From the NCBI RefSeq assembly GCF_000317285.1, contig NZ_AJLN01000152.1, positions 52,511 through 116,510 of the forward strand: 64,000 bases of DNA, read 5' to 3'. A program made the translations under genes and the position numbers. Under the pieces are notes generated by a model. It had not been told where the DNA came from, did no database searches, and was given only the letters and a program-made list of their open reading frames with translations. The DNA is from Chlorogloeopsis fritschii PCC 6912 (GTDB lineage Bacteria > Cyanobacteriota > Cyanobacteriia > Cyanobacteriales > Nostocaceae). Shown piece by piece: positions 4,396 to 38,285 of this stretch. Numbering within the stretch: the first letter of the stretch is position 1; every line of letters begins with the position of its first letter.

Positions 4396-4427
4396 AAGAT
4401 AGATAGAGATAGTGGAAAACTCGTGGA
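4396..4427 (-). promoter_or_regulatory. TCCAC-module promoter A (upstream of PRC-barrel 1)
   Basis: On the minus strand TCCACGAGTTTTCCAC (4427-4412) contains two TCCAC half-sites with an 11-nt period. It is followed by 10 nt and then TATCTT (4401-4396). The same layout occurs eight more times in the window. Predicted transcription start is about 50 nt before the ATG at 4336. Confidence 0.7.
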
Positions 4428-4798
4428 AAAAATTTAGATATAACTATGGACTGATTTTTATTATTTTTTCTATTTCAATAGGTGTAAAGTTTTAATTTGA
4501 AATCTTCAATAATTAACACATTGCACATATTCATAATTAATTAAATTCATAAAGATATTGCTAGATATTGTGTTCAATTTGTGCCCTGACAGTGTTTGGA
4601 AACACTCATTTTTCATGCTTTTATGCCTGCAAATTAGGAAAATTGAGAGTCATGCTTGCTGCTAAGTATTGGAGAGAATGCAGCAAGCGATCGCTCACGG
4701 AGGTGAGTTGGCTACTGACTTCTGACTCCTGAATTCTGTTTGATAAAATTGGATTTTACATTCAATCTATTATTTGCTGTGACTCAAGGTGAGTTTGG
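4428..4798. other. gene-free spacer
   Basis: AT-rich spacer upstream of promoter A and downstream of the gene ending at 4799. It contains one inverted repeat (CTTGCTGC at 4655-4662 and GCAGCAAG at 4680-4687) without a T-run, one GCGATCGC and nothing that looks coding. Confidence 0.5.
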
Positions 4799-5842
4799 CT
4801 AATTTACATTAGACGTAACTTGGAAACCAGTAGTAAAACGATAATATTTATGTGGATTTGCCGCTTGGTAGTTCTCGTTACCAGGTTGAACCTGGTAACG
4901 AGGGTTTCGAGGCTTTGCCTCCAGGCTGTTGGATTTGTCGCTTTGTCTGAGTGTGAAGAGAGTAATTTCAGGAGGGCAGTTAATCCGTATTGGTATGATA
5001 CTGAAACCAATTCCTCGGTTCACGTAAAGATGGTTTCCCGGCTGTCCATACCCATCGATCCAACCATCAGCATGAACCTCATCCTCCTTGGTAAAAGTCA
5101 ACCATGACCATTCTGGGGTGAATGGCAGACGAATTTGCCCTCCGTGGGTGTGCCCTGCCACAGCCACAGGTGCGGTGTTCGCAGGAAATTCAGCAAAGGA
5201 CTCAGGATGGTGCATCATTACAAATCTGGGTGCTGTATCTGGTACTTGTGCCAGAGCTACTTGGGGTTTATCTTTATCAGCCCAATGCGATCCAATACCT
5301 ACCAAGTATAAAACTGCTTGCTCATCTAGCTTGGTGGATGACGCCAAGGTTACAGCTTGATTTTGCAACATTTGCACGCCCACAGTTTCCAGAGATGCAG
5401 CTAGTTTAGTCGCTTGTGCTACATCGGGGGAAGCGTGCTTAGATTTCATGCCATAGTCATGATTACCTAAAACGGCATATGTAGGAATACCAGCAGCGGT
5501 TAATGGACGAACCAACTCAATTGCTTGATTAATTTCCGCGCTGGGGTTATCGCCTGCTTTGTATATAAAGTCACCAACAATCAGCACTGCGCTCGGACGT
5601 TCTTTAACTAATTGCGCAACAATTCTGCGGATGGTAGGGGTGTTTGCCAGCCACATTCCCACTTGCCAATCACCAATCACTGCAATTCGTTGCCCCACCC
5701 ATGCAGCAGGAAGACCGGGTATTACGGCGACTTGTGGTTCAATATCAATAAAATAGGGTTCGATTAAGCCGTAAATTAGAAGTGCAGCAATTAAACCCAA
5801 TAAACCTAATAATCCCAATAAAAAGTATTTGATTTTCTTCAT
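4799..5842 (-). CDS. membrane-anchored metallophosphoesterase
   Basis: A 347-aa calcineurin-like phosphoesterase with an N-terminal membrane anchor (residues ~5-28). The metal-ligand motifs appear in order: GDWQVG, VGDFIY, GNHDYG, MMHHPE and GHTHGGQ, followed by NRGIGFS. The first motif normally reads D-x-H; here the His is replaced by Trp, which removes one metal ligand, so activity should be tested. The last ~40 residues after LFTLRQSDKSN do not belong to the fold and are partly encoded by a palindromic intergenic repeat (4874-4921), suggesting the original stop was lost. It is probably a membrane-associated phosphatase or phosphodiesterase; the substrate is unknown. The PAP2 phosphatase gene lies just upstream on the same strand (51-nt gap), so an operon is likely. 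Confidence 0.82.
   Translation of the reverse strand: MKKIKYFLLGLLGLLGLIAALLIYGLIEPYFIDIEPQVAVIPGLPAAWVGQRIAVIGDWQVGMWLANTPTIRRIVAQLVKERPSAVLIVGDFIYKAGDNPSAEINQAIELVRPLTAAGIPTYAVLGNHDYGMKSKHASPDVAQATKLAASLETVGVQMLQNQAVTLASSTKLDEQAVLYLVGIGSHWADKDKPQVALAQVPDTAPRFVMMHHPESFAEFPANTAPVAVAGHTHGGQIRLPFTPEWSWLTFTKEDEVHADGWIDGYGQPGNHLYVNRGIGFSIIPIRINCPPEITLFTLRQSDKSNSLEAKPRNPRYQVQPGNENYQAANPHKYYRFTTGFQVTSNVN
4874..4921. repeat. double-hairpin palindromic repeat, copy 1 (inside a gene)
   Basis: The first hairpin (4874-4902) has a perfect 14-bp stem, CTCGTTACCAGGTT against AACCTGGTAACGAG, around one central base. The second is GAGGC-TTT-GCCTC (4909-4921). The element lies inside the 3' end of the metallophosphoesterase gene and is translated. 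A near-identical first hairpin recurs at 6807-6835. Confidence 0.88.
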
Positions 5843-5893
5843 ACTTAGCTTGCAAATTCTATTTTTGCCTGTTATTGAGCGATCGCCTCACAA

Positions 5894-6778
5894 CTAATAC
5901 TGAGTTCGGGGTAAATGCCTAGATAAACCCATACTTGCAAACAGTGCTGGTGCCAAGAACGCAATCCACAGCGCCGCAAAGCCAGATATCACAGCCTCAC
6001 GCACCAATCCACTGCTAATCATGAGGCGAAATACAATTACGAGCGTTACCAGTCCCCCCAAGCCGATCGCAACTTTCAGTACTTGCTTTCGGCGGGAAAT
6101 TTTCGCTGGGGAGTAGCGAACATACCAATATTCAAGCGGCATTCCAATTCCCAAACCTACTGCATAACCAAATAGTTCCCAACCTCTAGGAGAGAAACTG
6201 GTGAAAGGAAACACTGCAACAGGTGCTGAAAGACCAAGAACCAGGAAGAATTGAAATGTCCGTCCAGAGAACCAGCGCACAAGCATCGGCCAAAAACGCT
6301 GATAAGCGACTACCAAAATCAACGCGATCGCCGCGCCGCCAAGCAAGTCTGCTAGATAGTGTACACCGAGATATAGGCGAGATAGCATGACTAGAAGGAC
6401 AATACATACCGAAATTATTGCCGGAAGGCGACCAAAAGCAGTTAATGTGCCCCACAGAGTAGTTGCAGTTACTGTGTGTCCACTCGGAAACGACGGTACT
6501 CCTGGATGTGTGCGAATAATAATCTGGGGATTGTGGGGACGTGGTACAGGGAAGATTGTCCAAATCAGTACGTCTATCACTGTTCCTAAAAGCACGACAC
6601 CAAGCAAGCCATAGGCACGCTGTCGTCCCCAAACCCAGAGTGCTAAAGCAAACATCACTGTAACAGCCTTAGCTGTCCCAAATTGTGAGAGAGCCTCAAA
6701 CAACCAATTCCAACTGCTACCAAACAAGCGCTGAATAGTAATAATTGGCTCAGGACTCCAAAGTATGTCAACCGCCAT
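5894..6778 (-). CDS. PAP2-family membrane phosphatase
   Basis: About 294 aa with 7-8 membrane segments. The three phosphatase signature blocks of the PAP2/lipid-phosphate-phosphatase superfamily are visible: FPVPRPHNP, PSFPSGHT and SRLYLGVHYLADLL. Such enzymes hydrolyse lipid or prenyl (di)phosphates at the membrane. The ATG at 6778 is chosen because GAGGAAA lies just upstream; the longer frame from 6823 starts inside the palindromic repeat at 6807-6853 and its first 15 residues (MNLVTRVNLK...) are repeat-derived. Its neighbour downstream is a metallophosphoesterase, so the pair may act on related phospho-substrates (inference). Confidence 0.85.
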   Translation of the reverse strand: MAVDILWSPEPIITIQRLFGSSWNWLFEALSQFGTAKAVTVMFALALWVWGRQRAYGLLGVVLLGTVIDVLIWTIFPVPRPHNPQIIIRTHPGVPSFPSGHTVTATTLWGTLTAFGRLPAIISVCIVLLVMLSRLYLGVHYLADLLGGAAIALILVVAYQRFWPMLVRWFSGRTFQFFLVLGLSAPVAVFPFTSFSPRGWELFGYAVGLGIGMPLEYWYVRYSPAKISRRKQVLKVAIGLGGLVTLVIVFRLMISSGLVREAVISGFAALWIAFLAPALFASMGLSRHLPRTQY

Positions 6779-6806
6779 TTTCCTCAGAATTATTTTTAGA
6801 TTTACC

Positions 6807-8804: not shown

Positions 8805-9437
8805 TTAACCCTCTGTTCTAAATAATTTTTTATTGGCAGCTAGCCATTCTTCTTGCAGTTTTAATCTTGGATGGTCTGTGTCATTAATTTCGTACAAATT
8901 TGGATAATGATGGTAGTTATAAGTAGCGCGAGCCTCAACAGCCTTATCCTCTTCTTCTGAGGAAACACAAGGCTTATTAACTCCCATTGGTTCATTTAAA
9001 ATAGCAACTTGATTGATTGCCATAGGAGAGTATGGCACTATAGGTACTACGGGATTGACGTAAGAATAAGTAGCTGGATTCATGCTGTAAGTATTTCTGA
9101 CCAGATCCTCATAGTCGTAATCAATTCTTAGGTCATCATTAAACTCAGGCAAATTTTTTGCATTCTCTTCAGTAAGTTCCTTAACATAAACTCGTTTTTC
9201 AGAGAAATTAATCCGAGAAAGACCAATTGGTAACAATACTTTCTTACCAAAAATCCAAAAGCCTAAGTCAATAATTAAATACCGGAACTTAGCTTCTGTC
9301 TCATCAACTAGAGTGTCATTAACAGTACCAATTTTCTCGTCAGAAACATTTGAATAAATACTAAAATCAATAATGTTGTCTTCACCAAATATCTCACGGT
9401 AATTTGGAACAATATCTGTGAGTTTTAATAGGGACAT
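8805..9437 (-). CDS. PRC-barrel domain protein (paralogue 2)
   Basis: About 210 aa. The N-terminal PRC-barrel core (ISxxDEKIGTV, LVDETEAKFRYLIIDLGFW, GKKVLLPIGLSRI, LTEENAKNLPEF) parallels the proteins at 3830 and 21190. The linker is Pro/Tyr/Val-rich and the tail ends in a charged helix. The ATG at 9437 is preferred because GGAG lies just upstream; a TTG start four codons earlier would include the ribosome-binding site. Promoter module B (9529-9560) lies about 90 nt upstream. The leader also holds a perfect 7-bp inverted repeat (GTTGAGC / GCTCAAC, near 9479-9494). Confidence 0.85.
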   Translation of the reverse strand: MSLLKLTDIVPNYREIFGEDNIIDFSIYSNVSDEKIGTVNDTLVDETEAKFRYLIIDLGFWIFGKKVLLPIGLSRINFSEKRVYVKELTEENAKNLPEFNDDLRIDYDYEDLVRNTYSMNPATYSYVNPVVPIVPYSPMAINQVAILNEPMGVNKPCVSSEEEDKAVEARATYNYHHYPNLYEINDTDHPRLKLQEEWLAANKKLFRTEG

Positions 9438-9528
9438 TTCATTCTCCAAAATTTTTTAGATGTGTAATTTGAGAAAAAGTTGAGCTGCTCAACTGTTAGA
9501 GGAGCTATGATTAACCGGCTGTAGTTTG

Positions 9529-9560
9529 AGCTTAAGCTTAAATAGTGGAAATCTAGTGAA
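9529..9560 (-). promoter_or_regulatory. TCCAC-module promoter B (upstream of PRC-barrel 2)
   Basis: The minus strand reads TTCACTAGATTTCCAC (9560-9545), 10 nt, then TAAGCT (9534-9529). The first half-site has one change (TTCAC); the second half, the spacing and the hexamer position match the other copies. Confidence 0.62.
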
Positions 9561-9659: not shown

Positions 9660-10229
9660 TTACTGCTCTACCCATTCAAGTAATCCAAGAGAGGTAACTC
9701 CACCAAAAAAGTGAGCGCCAATCATATTTATATTTGCCAGCATTACAAAAATATCTAGCGAACGAATGACATTTTCCTGGTTATAAACTGCTACTCCTTG
9801 CGGTTGGGCTAAAGCTTTCGCCAGTACAACAGCAACTGTCTCTTCAGATCCAATAAAAGCTATTAATAACCCTACTAGACTAACGATTAATCCAAATCTC
9901 AAAACCCGAATTATATCCTCTTTTTTTGGATGGATTTGAGGATTGGGGGCTTGTAAACGTTTAGCTAAACGTCTGTAACGGAAAGCCCAGTAAACCCGGA
10001 AGCACAACAGCAAAATTCCAATAATAGCTAGAAATATGCCAAAACCGATGCCAGGATTATTCGTTTGGGCAGTTATATTACGGCTAAAGGACGCAAATAA
10101 CAAAGCGAGAGCAGAAACACTACCTAGTGCTAACTGTACCCAAAAGCTAAATCGACTTACTACACGAAAAGTAGCGGCAAATTCTTGTTTAGTTGGTGGT
10201 TGTGAGAAAGGTTCTAAATTATTTAACAT
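9660..10229 (-). CDS. DUF3611-family membrane protein
   Basis: About 189 aa with four membrane segments and an N-terminal hydrophilic stretch (FSQPPTKQEFAATFRVVSRFSFWVQ in short blocks). The layout and RVVSRFSFW/LLCFRVYWAFRYR motifs match the cyanobacterial/plastid DUF3611 family of unknown function. The ATG at 10229 is preferred since AAAGGGTG lies 4-5 nt upstream; an in-frame ATG at 10253 lies inside a heptameric gtcattt repeat. Promoter module C is about 90 nt upstream. It is probably a thylakoid or plasma-membrane protein. Confidence 0.78.
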   Translation of the reverse strand: MLNNLEPFSQPPTKQEFAATFRVVSRFSFWVQLALGSVSALALLFASFSRNITAQTNNPGIGFGIFLAIIGILLLCFRVYWAFRYRRLAKRLQAPNPQIHPKKEDIIRVLRFGLIVSLVGLLIAFIGSEETVAVVLAKALAQPQGVAVYNQENVIRSLDIFVMLANINMIGAHFFGGVTSLGLLEWVEQ

Positions 10230-10313
10230 ATACACCCTTTGATTATTAGTCATTTGTCATTTGTCATTCGTCATTAATTATTAAGTATTAGACAAATAAC
10301 AAATGCTAGTTTT

Positions 10314-10345
10314 AAGTTAGGGTGTAATCGTGGAAAACTGGTGGA
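10314..10345 (-). promoter_or_regulatory. TCCAC-module promoter C (upstream of DUF3611 gene)
   Basis: The minus strand reads TCCACCAGTTTTCCAC (10345-10330), 10 nt, then TAACTT (10319-10314). Both half-sites are consensus. Confidence 0.7.
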
Positions 10346-10461: not shown

Positions 10462-10833
10462 TCAGCCTAAAGCTGCTGCTACTTGAGTAGCAAGTTTTTG
10501 AGGATTAAAGGGTTTACTAATTACGCCTTTTACACCCAATTGAGTAAACTTATACGCTTCAGTACTACGCCCTCTAGCTGTCAGTAAAATTACAGGGATA
10601 TGCTTAGTCGTTGGATTTGCTTGTAAATTTTGAAAAGTACTTGTTCCATCCATATCGGGCATCATTACATCTAAAAGGATGGCATCAGGTTGAGCAGTTT
10701 GAGCCAATAGCAGTCCTTCAGTGCCACTTTTAGCAGTCAATACTTGCCAACCCCCCATGATTTCCAGGCAAGTTTGAATCAATTTACGGATATCGTCTTC
10801 ATCATCAATAACAAGGATTTGCTTGGCACTCAT
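10462..10833 (-). CDS. CheY-like single-domain response regulator
   Basis: A 123-aa stand-alone receiver domain. The phosphorylation site is D55 (ILLDVMMPDMDG), with the acidic pocket IDDEDD near residues 9-14, the switch Thr at T85 (ILLTARG) and the conserved Lys at K107 (VISKPF). With no output domain it probably relays phosphate or acts by protein-protein contact. AGGAAG precedes the ATG. It lies between two genes carrying TCCAC promoters, and ~1 kb from the hybrid kinase at 11920, a possible partner (inference). Confidence 0.9.
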   Translation of the reverse strand: MSAKQILVIDDEDDIRKLIQTCLEIMGGWQVLTAKSGTEGLLLAQTAQPDAILLDVMMPDMDGTSTFQNLQANPTTKHIPVILLTARGRSTEAYKFTQLGVKGVISKPFNPQKLATQVAAALG

Positions 10834-11098: not shown

Positions 11099-11446
11099 TC
11101 AGTCTAGATTCCAGTAATAACTCCCCGGTATTGTTACTACAACATTTTTTAGCCGATGGAGAGCATCATGGCAAATTGCTAAAGGAGCAGTTTTACCGTA
11201 AGTCTTTTTCTCTTTATCAAAGCTTACCGCAAAGGGTAGACCTGGGAAAGCATTAGACTCAAAACGAGAGATTTCAAAGTAAGCAGACTCAGAGTTTTCT
11301 AAAGTTTGAACAACCAGTTCTAAAGCTGCCCTCATATCTGTTGAATATGGGCGTAGAGGTAAGTTGAACTGTTGGGATACAACCTGGTCTAAATCTGCTA
11401 GTGAGTTTAGTTGAACAGTTGCAGTACGATATTGTGTTGTTTCCAT
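11099..11446 (-). CDS. hypothetical protein, TCCAC-module gene
   Basis: About 115 aa, soluble, with no signal peptide and no recognised motif; it ends PGSYYWNLD. The ATG at 11446 is chosen. A TTG nine codons upstream lacks a ribosome-binding site and would fall only ~20 nt after the predicted transcription start. Promoter module D lies ~50 nt before the ATG, placing this unknown gene in the same putative regulon as the PRC-barrel genes. It could be a small stress-induced protein; no function is claimed. Confidence 0.6.
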   Translation of the reverse strand: METTQYRTATVQLNSLADLDQVVSQQFNLPLRPYSTDMRAALELVVQTLENSESAYFEISRFESNAFPGLPFAVSFDKEKKTYGKTAPLAICHDALHRLKNVVVTIPGSYYWNLD

Positions 11447-11497
11447 TTTATACTTGCTTAAATTCTGCTGCAAAAAATTTTATGGTACTCATCCCTA

Positions 11498-11529
11498 AAA
11501 ATAGACTTCAAAAGTGGAAATCTGGTGTA
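11498..11529 (-). promoter_or_regulatory. TCCAC-module promoter D
   Basis: The minus strand reads TACACCAGATTTCCAC (11529-11514), 10 nt, then TATTTT (11503-11498). The first half-site has one substitution. Confidence 0.6.
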
Positions 11530-11919
11530 GAAATATAGAATTCCCAAGCACATGAACCTGAAAAGTTTTTGAGTGAATTATCCAGTACACCCATCAAAAA
11601 TTGGTTACCAGTTCATACGCTGTAACGCTTTGAAATTGCATAATTGCTCGCGAGGTTAGTTATTAGTCATTAATAACTAAGGACAAATGACGGTCTTAAC
11701 GAAAAAAGTACAATATGTATGCACTACAGCTTATTATCCTGATGTTATCGAGGAAATAAAGTGGCGTAGCTTTCTCAAGTATTCAATCTAATAAATTTGT
11801 TAAAAGTACAGCAATCTAGGGCTGTAGGAGGAAGAATTTTTCTATACAGGCGACATAATGGCAATGATAGATATCTCCTGCCCCAAGTACAACTACGGCG
11901 CGACCAAAGAGAAGAGAAA
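11530..11919. other. spacer between divergent genes
   Basis: It holds AT-rich sequence with one tandem 'ttagttattagtcattaataac' type heptameric stretch and probably the promoter of the hybrid kinase. A long in-frame extension of the kinase (from 11797) runs into it, but the encoded 41 residues are unlike the family. No other gene is seen. Confidence 0.4.
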
Positions 11920-14085
11920 ATGCAAAGATTGACGCGCTCCCAGCTAAAATGCTATGGCGTTGCTATCTTAACAGTTTTACTAGCACTGCTACTTACACAG
12001 TCGCTATGGCTAATGCATAGGTTTAGTGCTTACCCGCTATTTTTTGCCGCTGTTATGGTTAGCTCTTGGTATGGTGGTTTAGAACCGGGGCTACTAGCGA
12101 CTGTTCTGTCTGCTTTAGCTTGTGCATACTTTTTTTTACCTCCACTTTATTCGCTGGCTGTGATTGGATTTAATGCAGTGGGGCTGGTTCAGTTTGTTTT
12201 GGTGTCACTGCTGATTAGCATATTAAATCAGATGTTGCGTTCTGCCCAACAGCAAGCCGAAATCAATGCAATAGAAGCACAACACAACTACGATCGCCTA
12301 CGTCAAAGCCAAGAAAAATTGCACCAAAGCGAACAACGCTACCGTTTGTTTGTGGAAGGAGTAAAAGAATACGCAATTTTCATGCTCGATCCGAACGGAT
12401 TATTTATCAATTGGAATATTGGAGCAGAACGCATTTTAGGTTATCAGGAAGCAGAAATTATTGGTCGGCATTTCCGGTACATTTTTACACCAGACGCAAT
12501 TGAACGCGGACAACCGGAACAAGTACTGAGAACGGCAGTTAGGGAAGGTTTTTCTAAGGAAAATCGCTGGCATATTCGTAAGGATGGCACACATTTTTGG
12601 TCGTATTGTGTCATCATACCTTTACGAGATCGGGACGGAAATCTGCGCGGCTTTTCAAAAATTATGCAAGATTTGACTGAACGAAAACAGGCTGAGGAAG
12701 AGCGCGAGCAACTACTACTGCGCGAACAAGCCGCACGCGCTGTTAGCGAAGCGGCACTTTGTGCGGCAGAAGCAGCAAATCGTTCCAAAGATGATTTCTT
12801 AGCAGTAGTCTCTCATGAATTACGTACCCCCATGACCGCAATTTTGGGGTGGGTTGGAATGTTGCAAACAGGTAGGCTGGATGAAGCTAGAGCCAAAGAT
12901 GCGCTTGAGACGATTGAGCGCAACGCTAACTTGCAGATGCAACTGATTGAAGATCTACTTGATATTTCGCGCATTGTTCAGGGGAATCTCTCGTTGAATT
13001 TTGGCAGAGTTGATTTGGTAGAAGCGATCGCCCAAGCTTTAGAAGTTGTACAACCAGTGGCAGATGCTAAATCTATTCAAATTGAATCAGCGCTTGATAC
13101 CTCGGTAGAGCCGATTTGGGGTGACTCAGATCGTTTACAACAAGTCGTGTTGAATCTGCTTTCCAATGCAATCAAGTTTACACCCAATGGCGGACGGGTT
13201 GAGGTAAGGCTGTCAAAGGTACTAGAGACTAGGGACTGGGGACTAGGGACTAGGAAAAGGACAAGGAGACAAGGAGACAAGGAGACAAGGGGAGAAGACG
13301 TGAATTACGGCTCTGCACCTATTACCCAGTACCCAATACCCAATCCCCGATCCCCAATCTCTAACTATGCCCAAATCCAGGTGAGCGACACAGGTAAGGG
13401 TATTAGTCCAGATTTTCTACCGTATGTTTTTGAGCGTTTTCGTCAAGCAGACAGCACAAGCACCCGATCGAGTAAGGGTTTAGGTTTAGGACTGGCGATC
13501 GCTCGTCATTTGGTAGAGTTACACGGCGGCACTATTGCTGCCCAAAGCCAAGGAATAGGTCAAGGGGCAACATTCACAGTCAAGCTGCCGCTTACAGCCA
13601 TCCCCTCGTCAGAAGATGCTCAGACAAACAATACAGCCCAGATACAGCCGCCAACGATTACGGAAGATGCAGCACCATTAGACAATCCTCCAAAACTTGA
13701 CGGCTTACGCCTGCTGATTGTGGACGACGAAGCGGACACGCGCAAGTGGATTAGCACGGTACTGCAAGAGTGTGGAGCAGAAGTGATTGCCGTTGGCTCA
13801 ACAGGTGAAGCACTGGCATCGCTAGAACAATTTAAACCAGATGTGTTAGTGAGTGATATCAGTATGCCAGATGAGGATGGTTACACGCTTATCCGTAAAA
13901 TTAGGGAGCTTGAACCGGAAATGGGTGGACGCATTCCTGCTGTGGCACTTACAGGGTATGCGAGGGTAGAAGATTATAGACAGGCTATTGAAGCAGGCTT
14001 TCAGCTACACGTCGCTAAACCAGTTAGAGCAATCGAGTTAGTTGCAGTAGTTGCCAGCCTTGGCAGAATGTCTGGAAAACTATAG
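11920..14085 (+). CDS. hybrid sensor histidine kinase (DUF4118-like membrane region, PAS, HisKA, HATPase, receiver)
   Basis: About 721 aa from the ATG at 11920. In a numbering that starts 41 codons earlier: membrane region of 3-4 helices (~52-146, KdpD/DUF4118-like with YPLFFAAVMVSSWYGG), coiled coil, PAS domain (~185-298), HisKA with phospho-acceptor H340 (SHELRTPM), ATPase N-box (NLLSNAIKFTP), G1 (SDTGKGI) and G2 (GLGLGLAIA), and C-terminal receiver with D687 (VLVSDISMPDEDG). Residues ~475-523, between the N and G1 boxes, are a repeat-derived insertion (13219-13365) in a surface loop region. It is a membrane sensor feeding an internal receiver, with no DNA-binding output, so it needs partners. 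CheY-like 10462 and OmpR-type 23434 are nearby candidates. Confidence 0.9.
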   Translation: MQRLTRSQLKCYGVAILTVLLALLLTQSLWLMHRFSAYPLFFAAVMVSSWYGGLEPGLLATVLSALACAYFFLPPLYSLAVIGFNAVGLVQFVLVSLLISILNQMLRSAQQQAEINAIEAQHNYDRLRQSQEKLHQSEQRYRLFVEGVKEYAIFMLDPNGLFINWNIGAERILGYQEAEIIGRHFRYIFTPDAIERGQPEQVLRTAVREGFSKENRWHIRKDGTHFWSYCVIIPLRDRDGNLRGFSKIMQDLTERKQAEEEREQLLLREQAARAVSEAALCAAEAANRSKDDFLAVVSHELRTPMTAILGWVGMLQTGRLDEARAKDALETIERNANLQMQLIEDLLDISRIVQGNLSLNFGRVDLVEAIAQALEVVQPVADAKSIQIESALDTSVEPIWGDSDRLQQVVLNLLSNAIKFTPNGGRVEVRLSKVLETRDWGLGTRKRTRRQGDKETRGEDVNYGSAPITQYPIPNPRSPISNYAQIQVSDTGKGISPDFLPYVFERFRQADSTSTRSSKGLGLGLAIARHLVELHGGTIAAQSQGIGQGATFTVKLPLTAIPSSEDAQTNNTAQIQPPTITEDAAPLDNPPKLDGLRLLIVDDEADTRKWISTVLQECGAEVIAVGSTGEALASLEQFKPDVLVSDISMPDEDGYTLIRKIRELEPEMGGRIPAVALTGYARVEDYRQAIEAGFQLHVAKPVRAIELVAVVASLGRMSGKL
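13219..13365. repeat. intergenic-type tandem repeat inserted in frame in the histidine kinase
   Basis: The stretch consists of ggactaggg-type and acaaggag-type short repeats followed by acccaat/ccccgat-type repeats, a composition usual for cyanobacterial intergenic DNA. It is open in frame and encodes ~49 low-complexity residues (Arg/Lys/Thr/Gly, then Pro/Ile/Ser). Confidence 0.78.
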
Positions 14086-14127: not shown

Positions 14128-14159
14128 TCCACAAGATTTCCACTTTTTAGAGATATCTT
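14128..14159 (+). promoter_or_regulatory. TCCAC-module promoter E (upstream of SLH-fasciclin gene)
   Basis: TCCACAAGATTTCCAC (14128-14143), 10 nt, then TATCTT (14154-14159). Downstream, TAGAAGCAGTT (14165-14175) and TTAACCTCAA (14202-14211) recur at nearly the same offsets after promoter F, so the leader is also related. Confidence 0.72.
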
Positions 14160-14345
14160 CAAACTAGAAGCAGTTCAATTGCTGAACTAGCATCCAACAA
14201 CTTAACCTCAACATCATTTTTACCTGACTTTTAGGTATTGCACATTGGAAATGATTTAGAAAAAAAATACAGAATTCAATCATTTTTTGATTGTGCAATG
14301 CCTATTTCTTTTCCTGAGGTTGAGAAAACTCAGAGGATATTTTCT

Positions 14346-15611
14346 ATGTTTAGCTTCTTACGTTGGTCATCAGGTAGCGCCGCTTTGCTAGGAGTTACTA
14401 TGACATTTGGCGCGATCGCTCCTGTATTCATTTCTGCTCCCGCCGTTGCTCAAACGACTTCTCCATCTCCAAGTCCGGGTGCAGAGGTCAACTTTTCTGA
14501 TGTTGCACCTAATTTCTGGGCGCGACCATTTATTCAAGCTCTAGCTCAAAGAAACATCATTACAGGCTTTCCCAATGGAACCTTTAGACCACAGCAGCCT
14601 GTGGAACGTGCAGAATTTGCTGCCATGATTGCCAAAGCTTTTGAGCAGAATCAAGTTCGGCAGTTAGCTGAATCTGGATTTAGAGATGTCAAGAGCGGTT
14701 ACTGGGCGGCTTCTGAAATAGAAGAAGCTTTTCAAACAGGATTTATGAAAGGCTACGGTGGTGGACTGTTTTTGCCAGAGCAACCCATTCCCAGAGCACA
14801 GGCGATAACTGCTTTAGCAAATGGTTTGGGCTTGTCTGTTGATGGCACATCGGCAAATATTCTCAGAAGTTACTACCAAGATGCTGGATGGATACCTGCT
14901 TACGCTATCAATCCTATAGCTGCTGCCACACAAGCAAATATTGTGGTCAACTACCCAAATCTACGATCTCTCAATCCACTCCGAAATCTCACCCGTGCGG
15001 AAGCAGCAGCACTTTTATATCAAGCCTTGGTACAGCAAGGTAAAATAGAACCACTTGCTAGCAATGTTGCGGCTACTAATTACATTGTGGGTCGCAATAA
15101 TGGGGTCAGTCAAACCACTTCAACTACTACATCTAACACAACTACTTCAACGACTTCCACAACAGAGCCTGGTACCATTGGTGATATTTATGCTCTGTCT
15201 ACATTGAACTTTACAACATTGAGTTCTGCATTAAAAACAGCAGGTTTAGCAGATACTCTCAAGAGCAAAGGCCCTTATACAGTTTTTGCTCCGACTGATG
15301 AAGCCTTTGCTGCTTTACCTAAAGAAACTCTAAACCAATTGCTACAACCTAAGAATCGAGAAACGCTAGCTAGGATTTTGAGATACCATGTGGTGCTTGG
15401 TGAACTCACTAGCAATGAACTCAAGCGTGGAGAACTGAAAACACTCGCCGAAAGACCTGTCAATATTCAAATTAATCCCAGTACTAATCAAATCGCGGTG
15501 AATGATGCGAGTGTGACTCAACCAAACATCCAAGCAAGTAACGGTGTTATCCATGCGATTAATGAAGTTTTAATACCACCTAATCTCAATTTGAACCAGT
15601 TAGAGAAGTAA
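14346..15611 (+). CDS. SLH-domain and fasciclin (FAS1) surface protein
   Basis: About 421 aa from the ATG at 14346, which begins a proper signal peptide (MFSFLRW ... AVAQ) and has AGAGG upstream. A longer frame from 14238 would bury the signal. Three SLH repeats follow: VNFSDVAPNFWARPFI, FRDVKSGYWA and a more divergent third; then a Thr/Ser-rich linker (SQTTSTTTSNTTT); then one FAS1 domain (TIGDIYALST ... GPYTVFAPTDEAFAALP ... LRYHVVLGELTS ... GVIHAINEVLIPP). SLH domains bind cell-wall polymers and FAS1 is an adhesion fold, so an outer-membrane/wall-associated adhesive or structural role is likely. Its 3' end is included in a 144-bp tandem duplication. Confidence 0.88.
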   Translation: MFSFLRWSSGSAALLGVTMTFGAIAPVFISAPAVAQTTSPSPSPGAEVNFSDVAPNFWARPFIQALAQRNIITGFPNGTFRPQQPVERAEFAAMIAKAFEQNQVRQLAESGFRDVKSGYWAASEIEEAFQTGFMKGYGGGLFLPEQPIPRAQAITALANGLGLSVDGTSANILRSYYQDAGWIPAYAINPIAAATQANIVVNYPNLRSLNPLRNLTRAEAAALLYQALVQQGKIEPLASNVAATNYIVGRNNGVSQTTSTTTSNTTTSTTSTTEPGTIGDIYALSTLNFTTLSSALKTAGLADTLKSKGPYTVFAPTDEAFAALPKETLNQLLQPKNRETLARILRYHVVLGELTSNELKRGELKTLAERPVNIQINPSTNQIAVNDASVTQPNIQASNGVIHAINEVLIPPNLNLNQLEK

Positions 15612-16708: not shown

Positions 16709-16964
16709 CGTGCCGTAGGTATTCGCAAGCTGTGGGGTAAACAAAACATAACTCAAGGCTGAGCGTACTCGGCAGTTTGTATGCCGAACAGTTGCAATAA
16801 TTCGGGCATAATATTTCGATTTTAACCAAAGGAAAAATAGGTAACACTACCATGCATCCTTTAGCAAGTATTAAACCACTGTGTGTATAGCTCTATTCTT
16901 GTGCAACTACAAAACAGACATAACAAAATTGTACTAATTAGTATTTGCTGTAACTACAAGAGAT

Positions 16965-17308
16965 TGAACAATGAATCTTTTCTTACAGGTGAATCTCGTC
17001 CCGTTCCCAAACATCAGGGAGATGAAGTAGTAGCTGGTTCGGTTAACGGTGAAGGTTCGGTAAAAGTTAAAGTTACTCGTATAGATGCGGTGAAAGCTTT
17101 AAATTTAGCACAGAAAACTTACAGCAAAATGATTCAAAATTTGGCATGGGCAACAGGTTACAATGTGATTGCCATTCCCCTGGCCGCTGGTGTGCTTTAT
17201 ACTTGGGGAATTTTACTTTCGCCAGCCGTGGGAGCATTGTTAATGAGTTTATCAACTGTGATTGTGGCAATTAACGCTGTGATGTTGCGACGGGCGAAGT
17301 TGGCTTGA
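16965..17308 (+). pseudogene. internally deleted P1B (copper-type) P-type ATPase
   Basis: The frame starts inside the actuator domain (NESFLTGESRPVPKHQGDEV, GSVNGEGSVKVKVTRI) and jumps directly to the last two membrane helices (KTYSKMIQNLAWATGYN, IPLAAGVLY, LSPAVGALLMSLSTVIVA, NAVMLRRAKL). The CPC helix, the DKTGT phosphorylation loop, the nucleotide-binding domain and the whole N-terminus are missing. It cannot be a functional pump. Confidence 0.88.
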
Positions 17309-17513: not shown

Positions 17514-18311
17514 TTAGATAGACTGAAAATTACAACACTTTTGGCCGCCGTCCGTCACGTCATGGTCAAACAGCACTGTCAGTCCCACGTACTCACGAAC
17601 AACTATTTGCTCGTACACAATGCCAGGTCGTTTTGCGATCGCTCCCACCGCAATAATCAAGGGATGGATGCCGATGGGAATGCCCCAACTCATCCCACCT
17701 TGACCCACCATTCCCAGGGAGGTGACAGAGACTGTACCCATCATGCGTTTGAACAGAAAAGGATTGCGAAACAATGGTTGCCAGAAGAACTTTTCGCGCA
17801 CAAACCGTGGCAGCATCGTAAAGATTTTTGTCATCCAGGCGGCACGAGTCGAACCAATTTGCACTTCTGGTGCTGCTAGGGGTGATTGTTGCGCGGCGCG
17901 GATTTCGGAGTGGATGACAGCTACACTTTTCTCATTCGCTTTCCGAACGATGTAAGGCATCGGTAGCGTCTCGCCTGCGCCTGGTTCACCGACTGCTCGT
18001 TCCACGATTACCGTCACATCCACATCATCAAAAATCACTAACCGCCGTTTTCCCTTGCGGAGTGCATGGATGCACTTGTGTTCGCTGACTGCCTGAGCAA
18101 GACACTTAACGATCCAGCCCGTAAAACTGATGCTTTGACCAGTCTTTGCCTTCTGGTCACGGATGGTATCTCGTGCTGCCGTCACATCAATTTCTAGCAG
18201 GATGGGGACATGATGCCGTTTGCTGCCCCAAATCAGTGTATCGATTGTGGGGTTGCGAAAATCTGGAAACTTGCGCTCCTCAAAGCTTCCAATTAAATCT
18301 AGTTGGTGCAT
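17514..18311 (-). CDS. stand-alone 2-oxoacid dehydrogenase E2-type acyltransferase
   Basis: About 265 aa corresponding to the catalytic domain only of E2 (CoA-dependent acyltransferase) proteins, without lipoyl or E1-binding domains. Visible features are HVPILLEIDVTAAR, FTGWIVKCLAQAV, DVDVTVIVERAV and the catalytic-type block DHDVTDGG near the end (E2 consensus DHRxxDG, His and Asp kept). The ATG at 18311 has GAGGAGAC upstream; the longer frame from 18368 lacks one. The protein stops ~12 residues after DHDVTDGG with QKCCNFQSI, where relatives have a longer helix, so the 3' end may be frameshifted or truncated. Substrate is unknown. Confidence 0.75.
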   Translation of the reverse strand: MHQLDLIGSFEERKFPDFRNPTIDTLIWGSKRHHVPILLEIDVTAARDTIRDQKAKTGQSISFTGWIVKCLAQAVSEHKCIHALRKGKRRLVIFDDVDVTVIVERAVGEPGAGETLPMPYIVRKANEKSVAVIHSEIRAAQQSPLAAPEVQIGSTRAAWMTKIFTMLPRFVREKFFWQPLFRNPFLFKRMMGTVSVTSLGMVGQGGMSWGIPIGIHPLIIAVGAIAKRPGIVYEQIVVREYVGLTVLFDHDVTDGGQKCCNFQSI

Positions 18312-23433: not shown

Positions 23434-25260
23434 ATGAGAATTCTTTTGGTGGAGGACGATGATTCGCTTGCTCAAGCGGTGGCGGCTGTTCTGAGCAAGC
23501 AAAATTATGTAGTGGATATTGCTGCTGACGGTGAAGCTGGTTGGGAGTTGGTGACTGTTTGCAACTATGACTTAATTTTGTTAGATGTCATCTTACCCAA
23601 GTTAGATGGTATTAGCCTTTGTCGGCAACTACGACAAGAAGGCTATAAGATGCCAATTCTACTGCTAACGGCAAAAGATAGTAGAACTGATAAAGTTATG
23701 GGTTTAGATGCTGGAGCAGATGACTATGTTGTTAAACCCTTTGACTTTGGGGAGTTGTCAGCTCGAATTCGCGCGTTAGGACGTCGGGGAAATTCTTCCT
23801 TACCTCCGGTTTTAGAATGGGGAAACTTACGCCTCGATCCTAGTAGTTGTGAGGTGACTTATGCAGGCAACGTTTTGCATATAACAGCCAAGGAATATAG
23901 TATTTTGGAGCTTTTTTTACGCAATAACCAACGCACTTTTAGCCGCAGCGCGATCGTAGATCACCTTTGGGGTGCTGATACAGATCCACCAGCAGATGAC
24001 ACTATTAAATCTCACATTAAAAGTTTGCGGCAGAAACTCAAAGCAGCAGGCGCACCCTATAATTTTATAGAAACGGTTTATGGATTGGGTTATCGCCTCA
24101 AGCCTGATGCCAAAAAGCAAAAGTCTCAGGAAAGCAAAGAAGAGCCAACTCCAACGCAGCAAGAAATTTTTTCGGCAGCTGTTGCCAAAGCACGGGAAGA
24201 TTTTCAAGCTAAGGTTGGTTCGCGTATTACTGTGCTGGAGCAAGCAAGTAATGCCCTTAAAGAAGGTACGCTCAACTCTGGGCTGCAACAAAACGCAGAG
24301 CAAGAAGCTCACAAGCTGGCGGGTTCGTTAGGAAGTTTTGGTTTTGCTCGTGGATCGCTATTGGCTGAAAAAATAGAGAGTATACTTCAGAGTCAAACGC
24401 CAATTAATCAAGTTCAGTCTCAACATCTTTGTGAACTCGTGACGGAGTTACAACGGGAGCTAGAAAAAACGACGACTGATGAGCAAATTTTGAGTGAACA
24501 ACGGCAGAAGATGCTGTTGATAGTGAGCGGCGATCGCCAAGTAGTTGAGCAGTTAGTAAAAGAGGCTGCGACACAGGGAATGCATATAGACATTGCTATT
24601 AATACTGCTGATGCTAGGAGTGCTATAGAATCCTCAAGTCCTGATGTGGTGCTACTCGATCTTGATTGTTCTGATGAGGTTAAGGATAGTTTGAAGTTAT
24701 TAACAGAATTGTCCAACCGAACACCGCCAATACCAGTACTAGTTTTCACCGATCGAAGTAATTTTGCCGAGCGTTTAGAAGTAGCGCGAGCAGGCGGGCG
24801 TAGTTTTTTACATAAGTCCATGCCTCCTAAACAAATGTTAGAGCTAGTTATCCAGACGATTCAATCAATAAGTGTTTCTAAAACCAGAGTAATGGTTGTA
24901 GATGACGATCCACAGGTGTTAACTCTTATATGGAATTTACTAGAACCTTGGGGAATTAAGCTGACAACTCTTGAAGATCCGCGTCGCTTCTGGGAAACCC
25001 TGACAGAGTTTTCCCCTGATTTACTGGTGCTAGATATAAAAATGCCTCATGTAAATGGAATTGAATTATGTCAAGTGGTACGTAATGACCCCTACTGGAG
25101 CAAACTACCAGTACTGTTTCTTACTGCCCATGTCACAGCAGATACTGTTGATCGGATATTTGCAGCTGGAGCTGATGATTGTATCAGCAAACCAATAGAG
25201 GGAGCAAAATTAATCACTCGCATCTTCAAACGTTTAGAGCTGATTAGTAAAAAAACCTAA
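23434..25260 (+). CDS. OmpR-type response regulator with Hpt and two further receivers
   Basis: A 608-aa protein. Receiver 1 (residues 1-117) has D51 (LLDVILPKLDG), T79 and K101. A winged-helix Trans_reg_C domain (~125-223) has TAKEYSILELF, TIKSHIKSLRQKL and ETVYGLGYRL. An Hpt domain (~245-345) carries H293 (EAHKLAGSLGSFGF). Receiver 2 (~360-478) looks degenerate at the Lys end (D409 in LLDLDCS, FLHKSMPP). Receiver 3 (~485-602) has D534 (VLDIKMPHVNG) and K586. It is a DNA-binding regulator with an internal phosphorelay. OmpR-family winged helices bind direct repeats with ~11-nt period, the geometry of the nine TCCAC modules here, so it is a candidate regulator (inference). No kinase is adjacent. 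Confidence 0.9.
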   Translation: MRILLVEDDDSLAQAVAAVLSKQNYVVDIAADGEAGWELVTVCNYDLILLDVILPKLDGISLCRQLRQEGYKMPILLLTAKDSRTDKVMGLDAGADDYVVKPFDFGELSARIRALGRRGNSSLPPVLEWGNLRLDPSSCEVTYAGNVLHITAKEYSILELFLRNNQRTFSRSAIVDHLWGADTDPPADDTIKSHIKSLRQKLKAAGAPYNFIETVYGLGYRLKPDAKKQKSQESKEEPTPTQQEIFSAAVAKAREDFQAKVGSRITVLEQASNALKEGTLNSGLQQNAEQEAHKLAGSLGSFGFARGSLLAEKIESILQSQTPINQVQSQHLCELVTELQRELEKTTTDEQILSEQRQKMLLIVSGDRQVVEQLVKEAATQGMHIDIAINTADARSAIESSSPDVVLLDLDCSDEVKDSLKLLTELSNRTPPIPVLVFTDRSNFAERLEVARAGGRSFLHKSMPPKQMLELVIQTIQSISVSKTRVMVVDDDPQVLTLIWNLLEPWGIKLTTLEDPRRFWETLTEFSPDLLVLDIKMPHVNGIELCQVVRNDPYWSKLPVLFLTAHVTADTVDRIFAAGADDCISKPIEGAKLITRIFKRLELISKKT

Positions 25261-29771: not shown

Positions 29772-30113
29772 TCACCAGGAAATATATTTCACTACAGACT
29801 TAACTGAGGAAGACACAACTAGACTGAACAACACCCAGAAGAAACGAACTAGAATTTGATTCGTCAACTTCTTATTTGTTCTCTCAAATTCATCGGTGGC
29901 TTTTTTGTCACCCCTTGTGATAGAAAATCTGGGATGTTCTTCAAATTTATCAATATCAATCGCAGCATACCGGGTTGGAGTTTCCCTGATCCGATAGACT
30001 GTATCCTCAATTGCGTTTATGAACGCTTGAGCCAGCTCAACTCGCTGCTCTGTGTAGTATTGAACAGCCTCAGCGTATTCATTCAGCGCTTCAGGATGAA
30101 ATACATACCTCAT
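29772..30113 (-). CDS. ParE/RelE-type toxin, C-terminus replaced
   Basis: The first ~57 residues (YVFHPEALNEYAEAVQYYTE, AFINAIEDTVYRIRETPTRYAAIDID) are a classic ParE/RelE start. In relatives the chain continues with a short beta-sheet ending in a catalytic or DNA-gyrase-binding part (R-R-x-x-x-x-FPYxxxY). Here it continues with unrelated KFEEHPRFSITRGDKK and a hydrophobic tail FFWVLFSLVVSS. The toxin is therefore probably inactive or neo-functional. Its ATG overlaps the antitoxin stop (ATGA), the usual coupling. Confidence 0.7.
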   Translation of the reverse strand: MRYVFHPEALNEYAEAVQYYTEQRVELAQAFINAIEDTVYRIRETPTRYAAIDIDKFEEHPRFSITRGDKKATDEFERTNKKLTNQILVRFFWVLFSLVVSSSVKSVVKYISW

Positions 30114-30340
30114 GGCTCAATCAGCCGTCTGACTTGCGCTAAAGCATCTTCACCTGAAATTGGTTGAACAGAGCCATTTCGCACCTCATCTCTCCGGCGC
30201 TTGGCTTCAGTCACCCAAACTGTCTGAATTACTGGATCAGTGTCGAACTCCAAGCTTTCTACCAACTTGTCTGCAAGAAGCGCTCTTGATGCGCTCGGCA
30301 AGGACAGTATTTCTTCCGTCAGTTGCTCAATTGACCGCAT
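30110..30340 (-). CDS. addiction-module antitoxin (TIGR02574-like)
   Basis: About 76 aa: MRSIEQLTEEILSLP, SRALLADKLVESLE, then TEAKRRRDEVRNGSVQPISGEDALAQV. This is the layout of the small antitoxin family that precedes ParE/RelE toxins (putative addiction module component). GAGGG precedes the ATG at 30340. It overlaps the toxin start by 4 nt, and the pair forms one transcript on the minus strand. Confidence 0.85.
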   Translation of the reverse strand: MRSIEQLTEEILSLPSASRALLADKLVESLEFDTDPVIQTVWVTEAKRRRDEVRNGSVQPISGEDALAQVRRLIEP

Positions 30341-30541
30341 AATCCCTCGCAGAAAGCTAAATTCTAAGCAAAATTGTAGCAAAATCTGATGTGAGTAGAG
30401 CTTGATGAAGCAGTCACCAGCATCAGGGACTGTGCTGTGTGACTAGATACGCTACTTTAAGACTTTGTCAGGTTTTGATATATTCTGTATGATTGCGAAT
30501 TCAAATTTTCTAGGTTAGACGAGTACCTCTCGAAAGTAAAT

Positions 30542-35873: not shown

Positions 35874-35990
35874 TTATAGTCTAACGTACCATTTGATGTA
35901 TAACTGCATTAATTTTTGTCGCTGTGGTCTGCTATCTTGTAACGCTTCGTAGATACTTGGCCACTTGCGTCTAAATACTGGTGATAGCGA
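35874..35990 (-). other. possible transposase N-terminal fragment joined to prfC
   Basis: Immediately after the truncated prfC frame the minus strand encodes [20 protein letters not shown] and PQRQKLMQLYIK in another frame, with no relation to prfC. The style recalls the start of a cyanobacterial transposase, but I cannot verify this. It marks the breakpoint where prfC was cut. Confidence 0.25.
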
Positions 35991-37074
35991 TAAATACTTC
36001 CACGGTATCCCGTTCTTGAGCAAACAACTTTTGGGGATGAGATAACCGGATAGTTTTACCTGTACGGGCATGGTTAACTAGCATGTCTTTTTCAAACTTA
36101 CCAGAGCAGACCCGCAAAAAAGCAATGCGATCGCGGTGTTTGGGGTCCATGTTGGCTTGTAACTTGAACACAAACCCAGAAAACTCTGGATAGGTAGGGG
36201 GAATTTGACCTTTGTTACTTTCGTGGGGAGTTGGCTTAAGTCCATATTCCAAAAATGACTCTAGGAACAACTCCACACCAAAGTTGTTCATGGCGCTGCC
36301 AAAAAACACTGGTGTCATCTTACCCTGATGCACTGCTTCTAAGTCGAAGGTCGAACCTACCCCATCAAGAATCTCTAGGTCTTCTTTGAGCTGGTAGTAT
36401 AACTCTGGCTCTAGAAGCGACTCAATCCTTGGATCTCCCAAGGAGATAGTGGTATCTGCGGCTTTTTTGCTGCCATGAGCAGCTGTCTTTTGAAACAGAT
36501 GAATTTGCTGATGGCGACGGTCAAAAACCCCTCGAAATTGGTCACCCGTACCAATAGGCCAATTGATAACATAAGTTGAAAGTCCTAACTCTCGCTCAAT
36601 TTCATCAATTAGTTCTAAAGGTGACATACTGGGACGATCCAGCTTGTTAATAAAGGTGAAGATAGGCAGAGAACGCAATCGGCAAACTTCAAATAGTTTG
36701 CGAGTTTGTGTTTCCAATCCCTTAGCAGCATCAATAAGCATAACTGCATTATCGGCAGCCGCTAGGGTTCGGTAAGTATCTTCACTGAAATCTTGGTGTC
36801 CTGGCGTATCTAGTAGATTAAGTAGAAACCCTTGGTACTCGAATTGTAAGACTGTTGAAGTGATGGAGATACCCCGTTGTTGCTCCATTGCCATCCAATC
36901 TGAGGTAGCGTGGCGTTGGGCGCGACGGGCTTTTACAGAACCGGCTTGCTGAATAGCTCCTCCGTAGAGTAGCAGCTTTTCGGTAAGTGTCGTTTTACCT
37001 GCGTCTGGGTGAGAGATGATCGCAAAGTTACGCCGACGATCTATTTCTTGCGGGGCGATCGCATCCCGTAATTC
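35971..37074 (-). pseudogene. prfC: truncated peptide chain release factor 3
   Basis: The frame holds the complete GTPase region of RF3: [20 protein letters not shown] (P-loop), [17 protein letters not shown] (switch), [22 protein letters not shown] and later [13 protein letters not shown] and [19 protein letters not shown]. It ends at [10 protein letters not shown] followed by a foreign tail, leaving ~365 codons of a family length near 530. At the 5' end the frame has no start codon; the nearest ATG (37085) is out of frame. So both ends are damaged. RF3 recycles RF1/RF2 and is dispensable in bacteria. Confidence 0.85.
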
Positions 37075-37099
37075 TCAAATTTCATGAAAATTTTTGAGA

Positions 37100-37705
37100 T
37101 TAGAAAAGGTTTTCTAGTTGGTCATAAGAAAAGTAAGCGTTTAGACCAGCTCCAGTATATCCAGTAAACAACCACAACAATGCACGACCGCTATCAAGTA
37201 GAGTAAATAACCAAGCTTCTGTTGGTCGTTTGGTTGGAATGGCAACAGGTGTAAAAGCAATCCCTTGATTACCCAAGACAATCGTGGCAATAGCCTTAGC
37301 TCGTGGCATATGAAAATCAGATGTTATTAAGTAAACATGGCGAATCTCATGGCGTTTGAAATTATCAATTAGGGTAGTAAAGTTCGTCACAGTATCGACA
37401 GCTTCATAATTCAGATGTATCCGATTTTTTGATATATTGGCTTCTCGAAAAATGGGACGTACTTGCTCAGGAGGTAAACCAGAAGAAACCCAAATATCTA
37501 AAGAAGAATGCCTCTGGGCAAATTGAGCCGTAAACTTTGGCCGAGTAGGGCTACCCCCTAGCATGAGAATAGCTTGAGGACGAGGTGCTTGATAATAAGC
37601 TACGCTCAACCGGAAAATAATGATGCTATAAACCCAAAGAGGGATAGCAGCAATGATAAGAAAAAGGAAATGGTACTTCTTGAGCTTTTTATAAGTAAAA
37701 ATCAT
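37100..37705 (-). CDS. YdcF/SanA-family (DUF218) membrane protein
   Basis: About 201 aa. An N-terminal membrane anchor (YHFLFLIIAAIPLWVYSIII) is followed by the DUF218 domain: AILMLGG near the start, WVSSGLPPEQ, NYEAVDTVTNF, VYLITSDFHMPRAKAI, as in the YdcF/ElyC/SanA family tied to envelope integrity. The ATG at 37705 has AGAGGGCAG upstream and is preferred over 37738. Promoter module H lies ~220 nt upstream. It is divergent from the serine-hydrolase gene, which carries its own module I. Confidence 0.85.
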   Translation of the reverse strand: MIFTYKKLKKYHFLFLIIAAIPLWVYSIIIFRLSVAYYQAPRPQAILMLGGSPTRPKFTAQFAQRHSSLDIWVSSGLPPEQVRPIFREANISKNRIHLNYEAVDTVTNFTTLIDNFKRHEIRHVYLITSDFHMPRAKAIATIVLGNQGIAFTPVAIPTKRPTEAWLFTLLDSGRALLWLFTGYTGAGLNAYFSYDQLENLF

Positions 37706-37928
37706 CTGCCCTCTTATAAAGCTTTTATCAGTCCACATTCAGTTTTTCACCTAGTAGAGAGTGTAAATGAATAGTTAAAAAGCTTACCTACAATTAAAAT
37801 TTGATTTTCTTAATCCAATTTTCTCTATTGTTCAAATTACTCCGTGAAGAAGTAGCTGAACAGCGTAGCACAAAAGAATAATCATCAACTTAAAAATTAC
37901 ATCAATGCTGGAAATCCCCATAGCTAGA

Positions 37929-37960
37929 AAGTTAAGTATAGATAGTGGAAATATAGTGGA
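37929..37960 (-). promoter_or_regulatory. TCCAC-module promoter H (upstream of YdcF gene)
   Basis: The minus strand reads TCCACTATATTTCCAC (37960-37945), 10 nt, then TAACTT (37934-37929). Half-sites, period and spacing agree with the other copies; the AG at the centre of the repeat is AT here. Confidence 0.65.
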
Positions 37961-38253
37961 TAAATTATTATTACGTGCCCAATTCTTACCTAAGATATAA
38001 TTTGGCTATTTCTTTAGAGAGAGTTAATATTTCCACAAACAAAAAGAAGTTATCAATATCTTAGCGAATGCTTTATAATCCTAAAAATTTAAAAATACTT
38101 ACCATATGTTTCTGTAATCAAATAATTTTGATTCTTCTATATTTAAGATATTGGCGCTATAACAGTAATATCTATCTCTAGGTAAAAATATTTAATTCAA
38201 ACGACAGAAATTAAAAAGCAGGTTGGTTTTGAGGAGAGAAACATAAGCGAGCC

Positions 38254-38285
38254 TCCACGGATTTTCCACTATTTAGACTTAATTT
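38254..38285 (+). promoter_or_regulatory. TCCAC-module promoter I (upstream of serine hydrolase gene)
   Basis: TCCACGGATTTTCCAC (38254-38269), 10 nt, then TAATTT (38280-38285). Predicted transcription start is ~55 nt before the ATG at 38349. Confidence 0.68.

Follow-up and report, generated by a model that had tools for sequence, protein, structure and literature searches.

Nine copies of a short promoter-like box are found in a 64,000-nucleotide stretch of the Chlorogloeopsis fritschii PCC 6912 genome (contig NZ_AJLN01000152.1, positions 52,511 to 116,510; hereafter the window, in whose own coordinates features are given), which raises the question of what reads them. A first-pass annotation of this DNA had proposed that one OmpR-type regulator controls them as a local regulon, and this is supported by the lack of a -35 element, the 11-nt period of the repeat, the 10-nt gap to the -10 and the co-occurrence of the boxes with one OmpR-type gene. 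Very probably, the nine boxes form a single regulon under the response regulator at 23434-25260; this protein is probably fed by a kinase via a lone receiver. This regulator is the likely switch of the cluster because sets of boxes occur almost only with its gene across the 434 genomes compared.

When re-read in the sequence, all nine sites have the form T[C/T/A]CAC-N4-TTTCCAC-N10-TAnnnT, so the 11-nt period and the 10 nt to the TAnnnT hexamer stand as first described. All nine are also intergenic, and for eight of them the next called open reading frame (ORF) is on the box's own strand. The exception is the box at 22399-22430, where a 73-codon ORF on the opposite strand, probably spurious, lies between the box and a PRC-barrel/DUF2382 gene (21190-22116) that, from this pair of domains, we take to be AvaK-like. 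Read in their own direction, the six minus-strand boxes start at 4427, 9560, 10345, 11529, 22430 and 37960, the first-pass annotation having listed their left edges. Its observation that the half-site differs from that of the cyanobacterial Pho box, for which it gave the letters CTTAACCT, also stands, the half-sites in the window being of the TCCAC type.

A weight matrix built from the nine sites identifies no additional site in the 64-kb window at a cut of 12 bits, and in Markov resamples of five windows the same matrix gives two matches above 12 bits and none above 16 bits. With at most one mismatch, the 32-mer pattern TCCACN4TTTCCACN10TAnnnT matches the 7.75-Mb genome nine times, and these matches are exactly the boxes of the window, contained within 34 kb. 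Exactly two mismatches add 15 further matches, which are considered background because the reversed pattern, allowed up to two mismatches, yields 12. The bare pair TCCACN4TTTCCAC has nine exact matches genome-wide, seven of them in the window, and both of the outside pairs continue with an A after the second half-site, as DnaA boxes do. From the restriction of the full pattern to these nine sites, and the DnaA-like continuation of the two outside pairs, it follows that, strictly speaking, the regulon is a local one.

Might the boxes then be DnaA boxes, with DnaA binding TTTTCCACA-like repeats and acting as a transcription factor? The cyanobacterial DnaA box is given as TTTTCCACA in PMC4674748, which the half-site resembles in having TTTTCCAC in common, and one of the outside bare pairs (at about 1440-1600 of C96:18392-21407) lies between DnaN-type (DNA polymerase III beta) and DnaA-type genes, near other TTTTCCACA boxes and in what is likely to be the origin region. 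The other outside pair, at about 1500 of C50:156503-159518, is just 5' of an MFS transporter gene. Pairs of the TCCACAGAGTTTCCAC type recur in many relatives. However, the base after the second CCAC, an A in DnaA boxes, is T in eight and G in one of the nine window sites, and in a collection of 107 sites from the window and other islands A occurs there only once, as does the full TT[A/T]TNCACA. Furthermore, the boxes have a fixed tandem period, a fixed spacing to the -10 and a promoter position, unlike DnaA boxes, and DnaA is expected in every genome whereas box sets track one regulator. DnaA is therefore barely conceivable as the reader of these sites.

The constancy of this geometry is evident from the other islands. 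Applied to 17 of these, with matches below 16 bits not counted, the matrix from the nine window sites identifies 98 sites, compared with none for the reversed matrix and a mean of 0.6 when its columns are permuted. Including the window, 103 of the 107 sites are intergenic, though non-coding sequence constitutes 10-26% of the stretches, and 101 face the next called gene. Fifteen stretches from 11 new genomes contain 76 sites (69 intergenic, 70 facing the next gene, none for the reversed matrix), and 18 further stretches, comprising fragments, exceptions and second clusters, contain 37 (34 intergenic, 30 facing the next gene). As stretches were picked for holding boxes or the regulator, the per-stretch counts are biased; position and orientation are unaffected. 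This is the opposite of a motif that is as common inside genes or randomly oriented: the sites are intergenic and gene-facing.

The consensus of the 107 sites is TTC-TCCAC-nAGT-TTTCCAC-TWTT-N6-TAnnnT. TAnnnT is found exactly 10 nt downstream in 86 of the 91 repeat pairs identified without requiring a -10, the next most frequent offset, 4 nt, occurring 17 times; and 67 pairs of TCCAC and TTTCCAC have a period of 11, with at most one at each other period from 6 to 25. A TTGACA-like -35 (up to two mismatches, spacer of 15-19) accompanies three of the 107 sites, whereas 22.5% of random positions have one. SigJ, which is linked to desiccation tolerance in Anabaena, or another alternative sigma factor might use TTTCCAC and TAnnnT as its -35 and -10, and a fixed two-part promoter at stress genes is typical of sigma regulons. 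Yet TTTCCAC ends 10 nt from the hexamer, too near for a -35 given the usual spacer of 16-18 nt, and because of this spacing a sigma-factor promoter is set aside as extremely improbable. The upstream TCCAC repeats at an exact 11-nt period also argue against it, as does the lack of any sigma-factor domain among 40 scanned window proteins, which cover the window to about 49 kb.

Instead, an 11-nt direct repeat occupies the place of the -35, as it does in sites of the OmpR/PhoB family. In the pho box, direct repeats follow one another head to tail at an 11-nt period, some 10 nt upstream of the -10, which is an activator arrangement; by analogy, the layout of the boxes is that expected for a PhoB-type activator site. 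This replacement of the -35, with a 10-nt gap to the -10, argues against repression, whereby the regulator would cover the promoter and silence the island, and makes it very improbable. The precedent for repression is RcaC, described as activating or repressing according to the position of its L box (PMC8256508).

The 434 genomes comprise 149 relatives and 285 new ones within a 388-genome set of the order. An orthologue of the regulator is present in 31, spread over six families of the order. In the first set of 149, where an orthologue was defined as at least 62% identical over residues 1-349 (the next matches reach at most 58%), the 20 carriers have 137 strict boxes, 1 to 23 apiece, with at least two in 19 of the 20, and the 129 non-carriers have 57. 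A looser pattern, TCCACN4TTTCCAC, had matched 126 of the 149 and was dropped, as it also catches DnaA-type pairs and a repeated element in G029; the patterns replacing it require a T after CCAC and include the -10. Two box-rich genomes that seemed exceptions, G105 and G130, were found by tblastn to contain a short orthologue (REC-wHTH-HPt; 61-63% identical, 75% in the winged helix) adjoining a kinase and a receiver.

A stricter pattern and the same protein were then applied to the 388 genomes, with an orthologue cut of at least 60%; G218 reaches only 58% by tblastn, yet falls within the orthologue clade in the tree described below. At least two boxes are present in all 15 carriers (98 boxes in total, none for the reversed control), against one of 373 non-carriers, G016, with two scattered matches. 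The non-carriers together have 16 matches, compared with 13 for the reversed control. Considering the 285 new genomes alone, at least two boxes are present in 11 of 11 carriers and none of 274 non-carriers.

Islands are inherited as blocks, so any gene in them would co-occur strongly with the boxes, and the local regulator could be a passenger while a different OmpR-type regulator, for example an RcaC-like paralogue elsewhere, reads them. At E ≤ 1e-130 the regulator finds five matches in the window's genome, and a paralogous locus in G014, considered below, has two similar box-like sites. However, such paralogues are common in boxless genomes, 90 of the 149 relatives having a match at E ≤ 1e-130 and only 20 carrying the orthologue. 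Within the 12 genera that include both carriers and non-carriers, box counts are higher in carriers in 11, with a tie in one (g19). In G019, G045 and G006, boxes also occur at places away from the regulator gene: G019 has a second box cluster (C1:5553738-5575371) with its own copies of the receiver (81%) and kinase (54%), more than 5 Mb from the only regulator orthologue of that assembly, by which it is apparently controlled in trans. Hence a different reader is improbable, and the restriction to orthologues of a TIKS..K S recognition helix also favours the regulator at 23434-25260.

In this protein, Response_reg and Trans_reg_C both score over the Pfam cut-off, the receiver preceding the winged helix, whose best PDB matches include PhoB, RegX3 and BaeR; by its domains the regulator belongs to the OmpR/PhoB family. 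In a tree that leaves out a second, truncated G045 copy (N_G045b), the 31 orthologues, 18 long and 13 short, constitute one clade with support of 100/98. The short forms, of about 345-380 residues, have the order REC-wHTH-HPt without the two C-terminal receivers, and are found in G105, G130, G186, G203, G217, G218, G230, G242, G255, G276, G410, G254 and G009; 12 of these 13 genomes have at least two boxes. Seven winged-helix positions distinguish orthologues from 15 paralogues, five of them in the recognition helix: T190, K192 and S193, invariant in the 31 orthologues, and I191 and S197, each present in 30. None of the 15 paralogues has K192 or S197. T190, S193 and S197 align with T194, V197 and R201 of PhoB, the residues described as making base contacts in the PhoB complex (PMC3973317). 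As the G084 orthologue and some other listed homologues have a G at position 197, S197 is not strictly needed.

A database search for homologues scored 7996 candidates, with names taken from 120 of 2920 matches; among the matches listed are proteins from Chlorogloeopsis (90-94%), Fischerella (80-88%), Hapalosiphon, Calothrix, Nostoc punctiforme and N. flagelliforme (65%). Homologues 64-70% identical (P0025-P0029, P0031, P0041 and P0052) combine a TIKSHIKGLR helix with an extra C-terminal GGDEF domain, an addition that suggests the regulator may be coupled to cyclic di-GMP in some lineages. Carriage on plasmids was considered and rejected, the nearest plasmid relatives being at most 53% identical, and a search for related loci returned a cyanobacterial locus at 48% and three bacterial ones that are unrelated.

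The putative master regulator (23434-25260, plus strand; 608 aa, REC-wHTH-HPt-REC-REC by Pfam) shares the cluster with two other signalling genes. A putative sensor, the hybrid histidine kinase at 11797-14085 on the plus strand, has the Pfam architecture DUF4118-PAS-HisKA-HATPase-REC; its true start may be an ATG about 41 codons in, because homology begins only at residues 24-47. The lone receiver (10462-10833, minus strand; 123 aa, Pfam) is the putative relay intermediate and has a box upstream. The first-pass annotation included neither these three genes nor the likeness of the half-site to the DnaA box. In most islands, boxes, regulator and kinase or receiver share one stretch. A same-strand box lies 125-1044 nt upstream of 24 of the 26 copies of the lone receiver gene, so the relay intermediate apparently belongs to the core of the regulon, and feedback through this box is probable.

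In the proposed mechanism, the hybrid kinase would signal to the lone receiver and this in turn to the regulator, in the manner of the RcaE-RcaF-RcaC relay. The regulator would sit on each 11-nt direct repeat as a pair, head to tail, and recruit RNA polymerase, standing in for the -35 element, so that in its phosphorylated form it would activate envelope and stress genes (PRC-barrel/AvaK-like, fasciclin, BON and DUF3611 proteins, proteases and channels). We infer that the regulator binds DNA and that it activates instead of repressing, as we infer the signal and the order in which phosphate is passed on.

The predicted targets in the window can be read from the genes that follow the boxes. On the minus strand, box 1 (4396-4427; TCCACGAGTTTTCCACTATCTCTATCTATCTT) is 59 nt upstream of a PRC-barrel gene (3830-4336), box 2 (9529-9560), whose first half-site is TTCAC, precedes another (8805-9449), and box 3 (10314-10345) precedes a DUF3611 gene (9660-10253). 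Box 4 (11498-11529), with TACAC as its first half-site, is upstream of a gene for a 124-aa protein (11099-11473) with a weak Phage_ABA_S match under the Pfam cut-off, itself 5' of the lone receiver gene, which has the same orientation. Box 7 (22399-22430) lies upstream of the AvaK-like gene and box 8 (37929-37960) upstream of a DUF218 (YdcF-type) gene (37100-37738); boxes 4, 7 and 8 and the genes after them are again on the minus strand. The three plus-strand boxes are box 5 (14128-14159), upstream of an SLH-fasciclin gene (14238-15611); box 6 (18523-18554), upstream of a gene for a 116-aa protein (18702-19052) followed by a BON-domain gene (19197-19937), the two predicted targets together spanning 18702-19937; and box 9 (38254-38285), upstream of a beta-lactamase-fold serine hydrolase gene (38349-40364). 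The families of these targets, other than that of the 124-aa protein, were assigned by Pfam.

In other islands, box-preceded genes include those for YflT, BON and DUF389 proteins, an AI-2E-type transporter, chloride and other ion channels and BrkB, for M48, M50, S9, Rce1, HtrA-like and signal peptidases, and for Nramp, DUF1206 and luciferase-like proteins. Taking the same-strand next gene and merging repeats, the 107 sites give 99 proteins, which were clustered and the representatives of 29 of the 33 clusters scanned with Pfam. From these annotations, the box-preceded genes read as an envelope and stress set. The DUF3611 family provides a control within a single family: eight island copies have a box inside the fetched 1.5-kb flanks, whereas no box of at least 16 bits is found at the other 22 DUF3611 loci fetched (the best scoring 14.1), including copies 79% and 76% identical from genomes without a regulator orthologue.

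Among other features of the window, the ORFs at 16883-17308, 17514-18368 and 35971-36894 are partial matches to families (a piece of a P-type ATPase, a 2-oxoacid dehydrogenase acyltransferase domain and a translation GTPase that starts at profile position 47), and are possibly fragments or have misplaced starts. Two loci are toxin-antitoxin-like, a small addiction-module-type protein (Unstab_antitox) at 30110-30382 and a DUF2281-PIN pair at 41054-41760.

A number of observations weigh against control of the boxes by the regulator at 23434-25260. At least two matches are found in nine of the 129 non-carriers of the first set; many of these look like background, being recurrent sequences (for example ..ACCACTTGAGGAGATTAAACT) or pairs of the DnaA type with an A after them. 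The P values for co-occurrence, 4e-26 and 5e-20, are descriptive only because related genomes are not independent. G009 has the orthologue and a single weak box on a different contig, and G031 (C68:169302) and G058 (C499:4215), in which the orthologue is absent, each have a single exact box; their respective congeners G076 and G006 carry the orthologue, and the single boxes are perhaps relics of a lost relay. In G014 (contig C35, at 10269 and 10426 of the fetched stretch), two tandem box-like sites of 27.5 and 20.8 bits directly follow a gene for a receiver of 56% identity. The locus also encodes a kinase and two paralogous regulators of RcaC-like type (47-49%), and may be a sister relay whose box is nearly identical. 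G070 and G051 have two and one box-like sites respectively (18.7-26.8 bits), with no close regulator in the stretch; from the sites in these three genomes it is suspected that a paralogous relay may use a similar box. Of the signalling genes, the kinase gene is preceded by a box in none of 29 copies and the regulator gene, within 1.6 kb, in three of 31. In G023, regulator and boxes are present, with no close kinase or receiver in the fetched stretch. Finally, the targets vary widely from island to island, as their division into 33 clusters indicates.

The proposed relay can be compared with several known systems. RcaE-RcaF-RcaC is similar in having a kinase, a lone receiver and a regulator that unites a receiver, winged helix, HPt and further receivers. 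Its L box, TTGCACA-N4-TTGCACA, has an 11-nt period too; the half-site here is instead TCCAC, and the sensor has DUF4118 and PAS without the bilin-binding GAF photoreceptor domain. Among the scanned window targets and cluster representatives, no phycobiliprotein or pigment-gene Pfam family is found. The Rca proteins are described as a kinase, a lone receiver and a multi-receiver winged-helix regulator acting with an OmpR-class direct-repeat promoter element (PMC8256508, PMC4390838).

RfpA-RfpB-RfpC is described as lying within the far-red light photoacclimation (FaRLiP) cluster it is thought to control, with the C-terminal receiver of its regulator lost in some lineages (PMC4390838). The trio here is likewise encoded inside its own putative regulon cluster, and the short orthologues parallel the loss of a C-terminal receiver in RfpB. 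By contrast with FaRLiP, the targets are envelope and stress rather than photosynthesis genes, and the sensor is not a phytochrome; the Pfam-scanned window proteins include no phytochrome sensor and no psa, psb or apc paralogues. Because the photoreceptor and pigment-target tests failed, the system is not filed under RcaEFC or RfpABC. PhoB has in common with the regulator an OmpR/PhoB winged helix and a direct repeat with a period of 11 nt, placed some 10 nt upstream of the -10, and differs in half-site, domain order and helix residues (S193 and S197 here, V197 and R201 in PhoB); no Pst or phosphatase operon is under a box in the window.

Kimura et al. are said to have reported in 2022 that OrrA targets an AvaK gene in Anabaena, and for this link OrrA, which has a dehydration and salt regulon in Nostoc, was considered first as the reader of the boxes. 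The dehydration and osmotic theme is similar, but the box tracks an OmpR-type gene and OrrA is set aside because it is described as a LuxR-family factor (PMC13131328), where no letters for its binding site were found. In alkane-overproducing N. punctiforme, PRC-barrel/AvaK, CsbD and BON genes are described as upregulated (PMC7660261). From gene content, envelope, osmotic or drying stress might be guessed as the signal; the desiccation, osmotic or dormancy response suggested in the first-pass annotation is likewise a guess from the genes present.

No paper on the box or regulon was found in a search of the open-licence literature. The comparison of genomes by itself connects one regulator, together with its probable sensor and relay, to a promoter box that is apparently undescribed, and gives a circuit by which AvaK-like genes and other little-understood stress genes would be controlled. 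As N. flagelliforme is described as open to targeted knock-out (PMC13131328), deleting one gene there could test the whole chain. It is about an even chance that heterocystous and related cyanobacteria possess a self-contained, undescribed island for envelope and drying stress, in which a membrane sensor kinase, a receiver under positive feedback, an RcaC-like activator and a TCCAC-N6-TCCAC box would govern AvaK-type, fasciclin, BON and protease genes as a non-photosynthetic counterpart of FaRLiP. If this is true, relays of the RcaC/RfpB type would be a general cyanobacterial way to run clustered regulons, with one box each.

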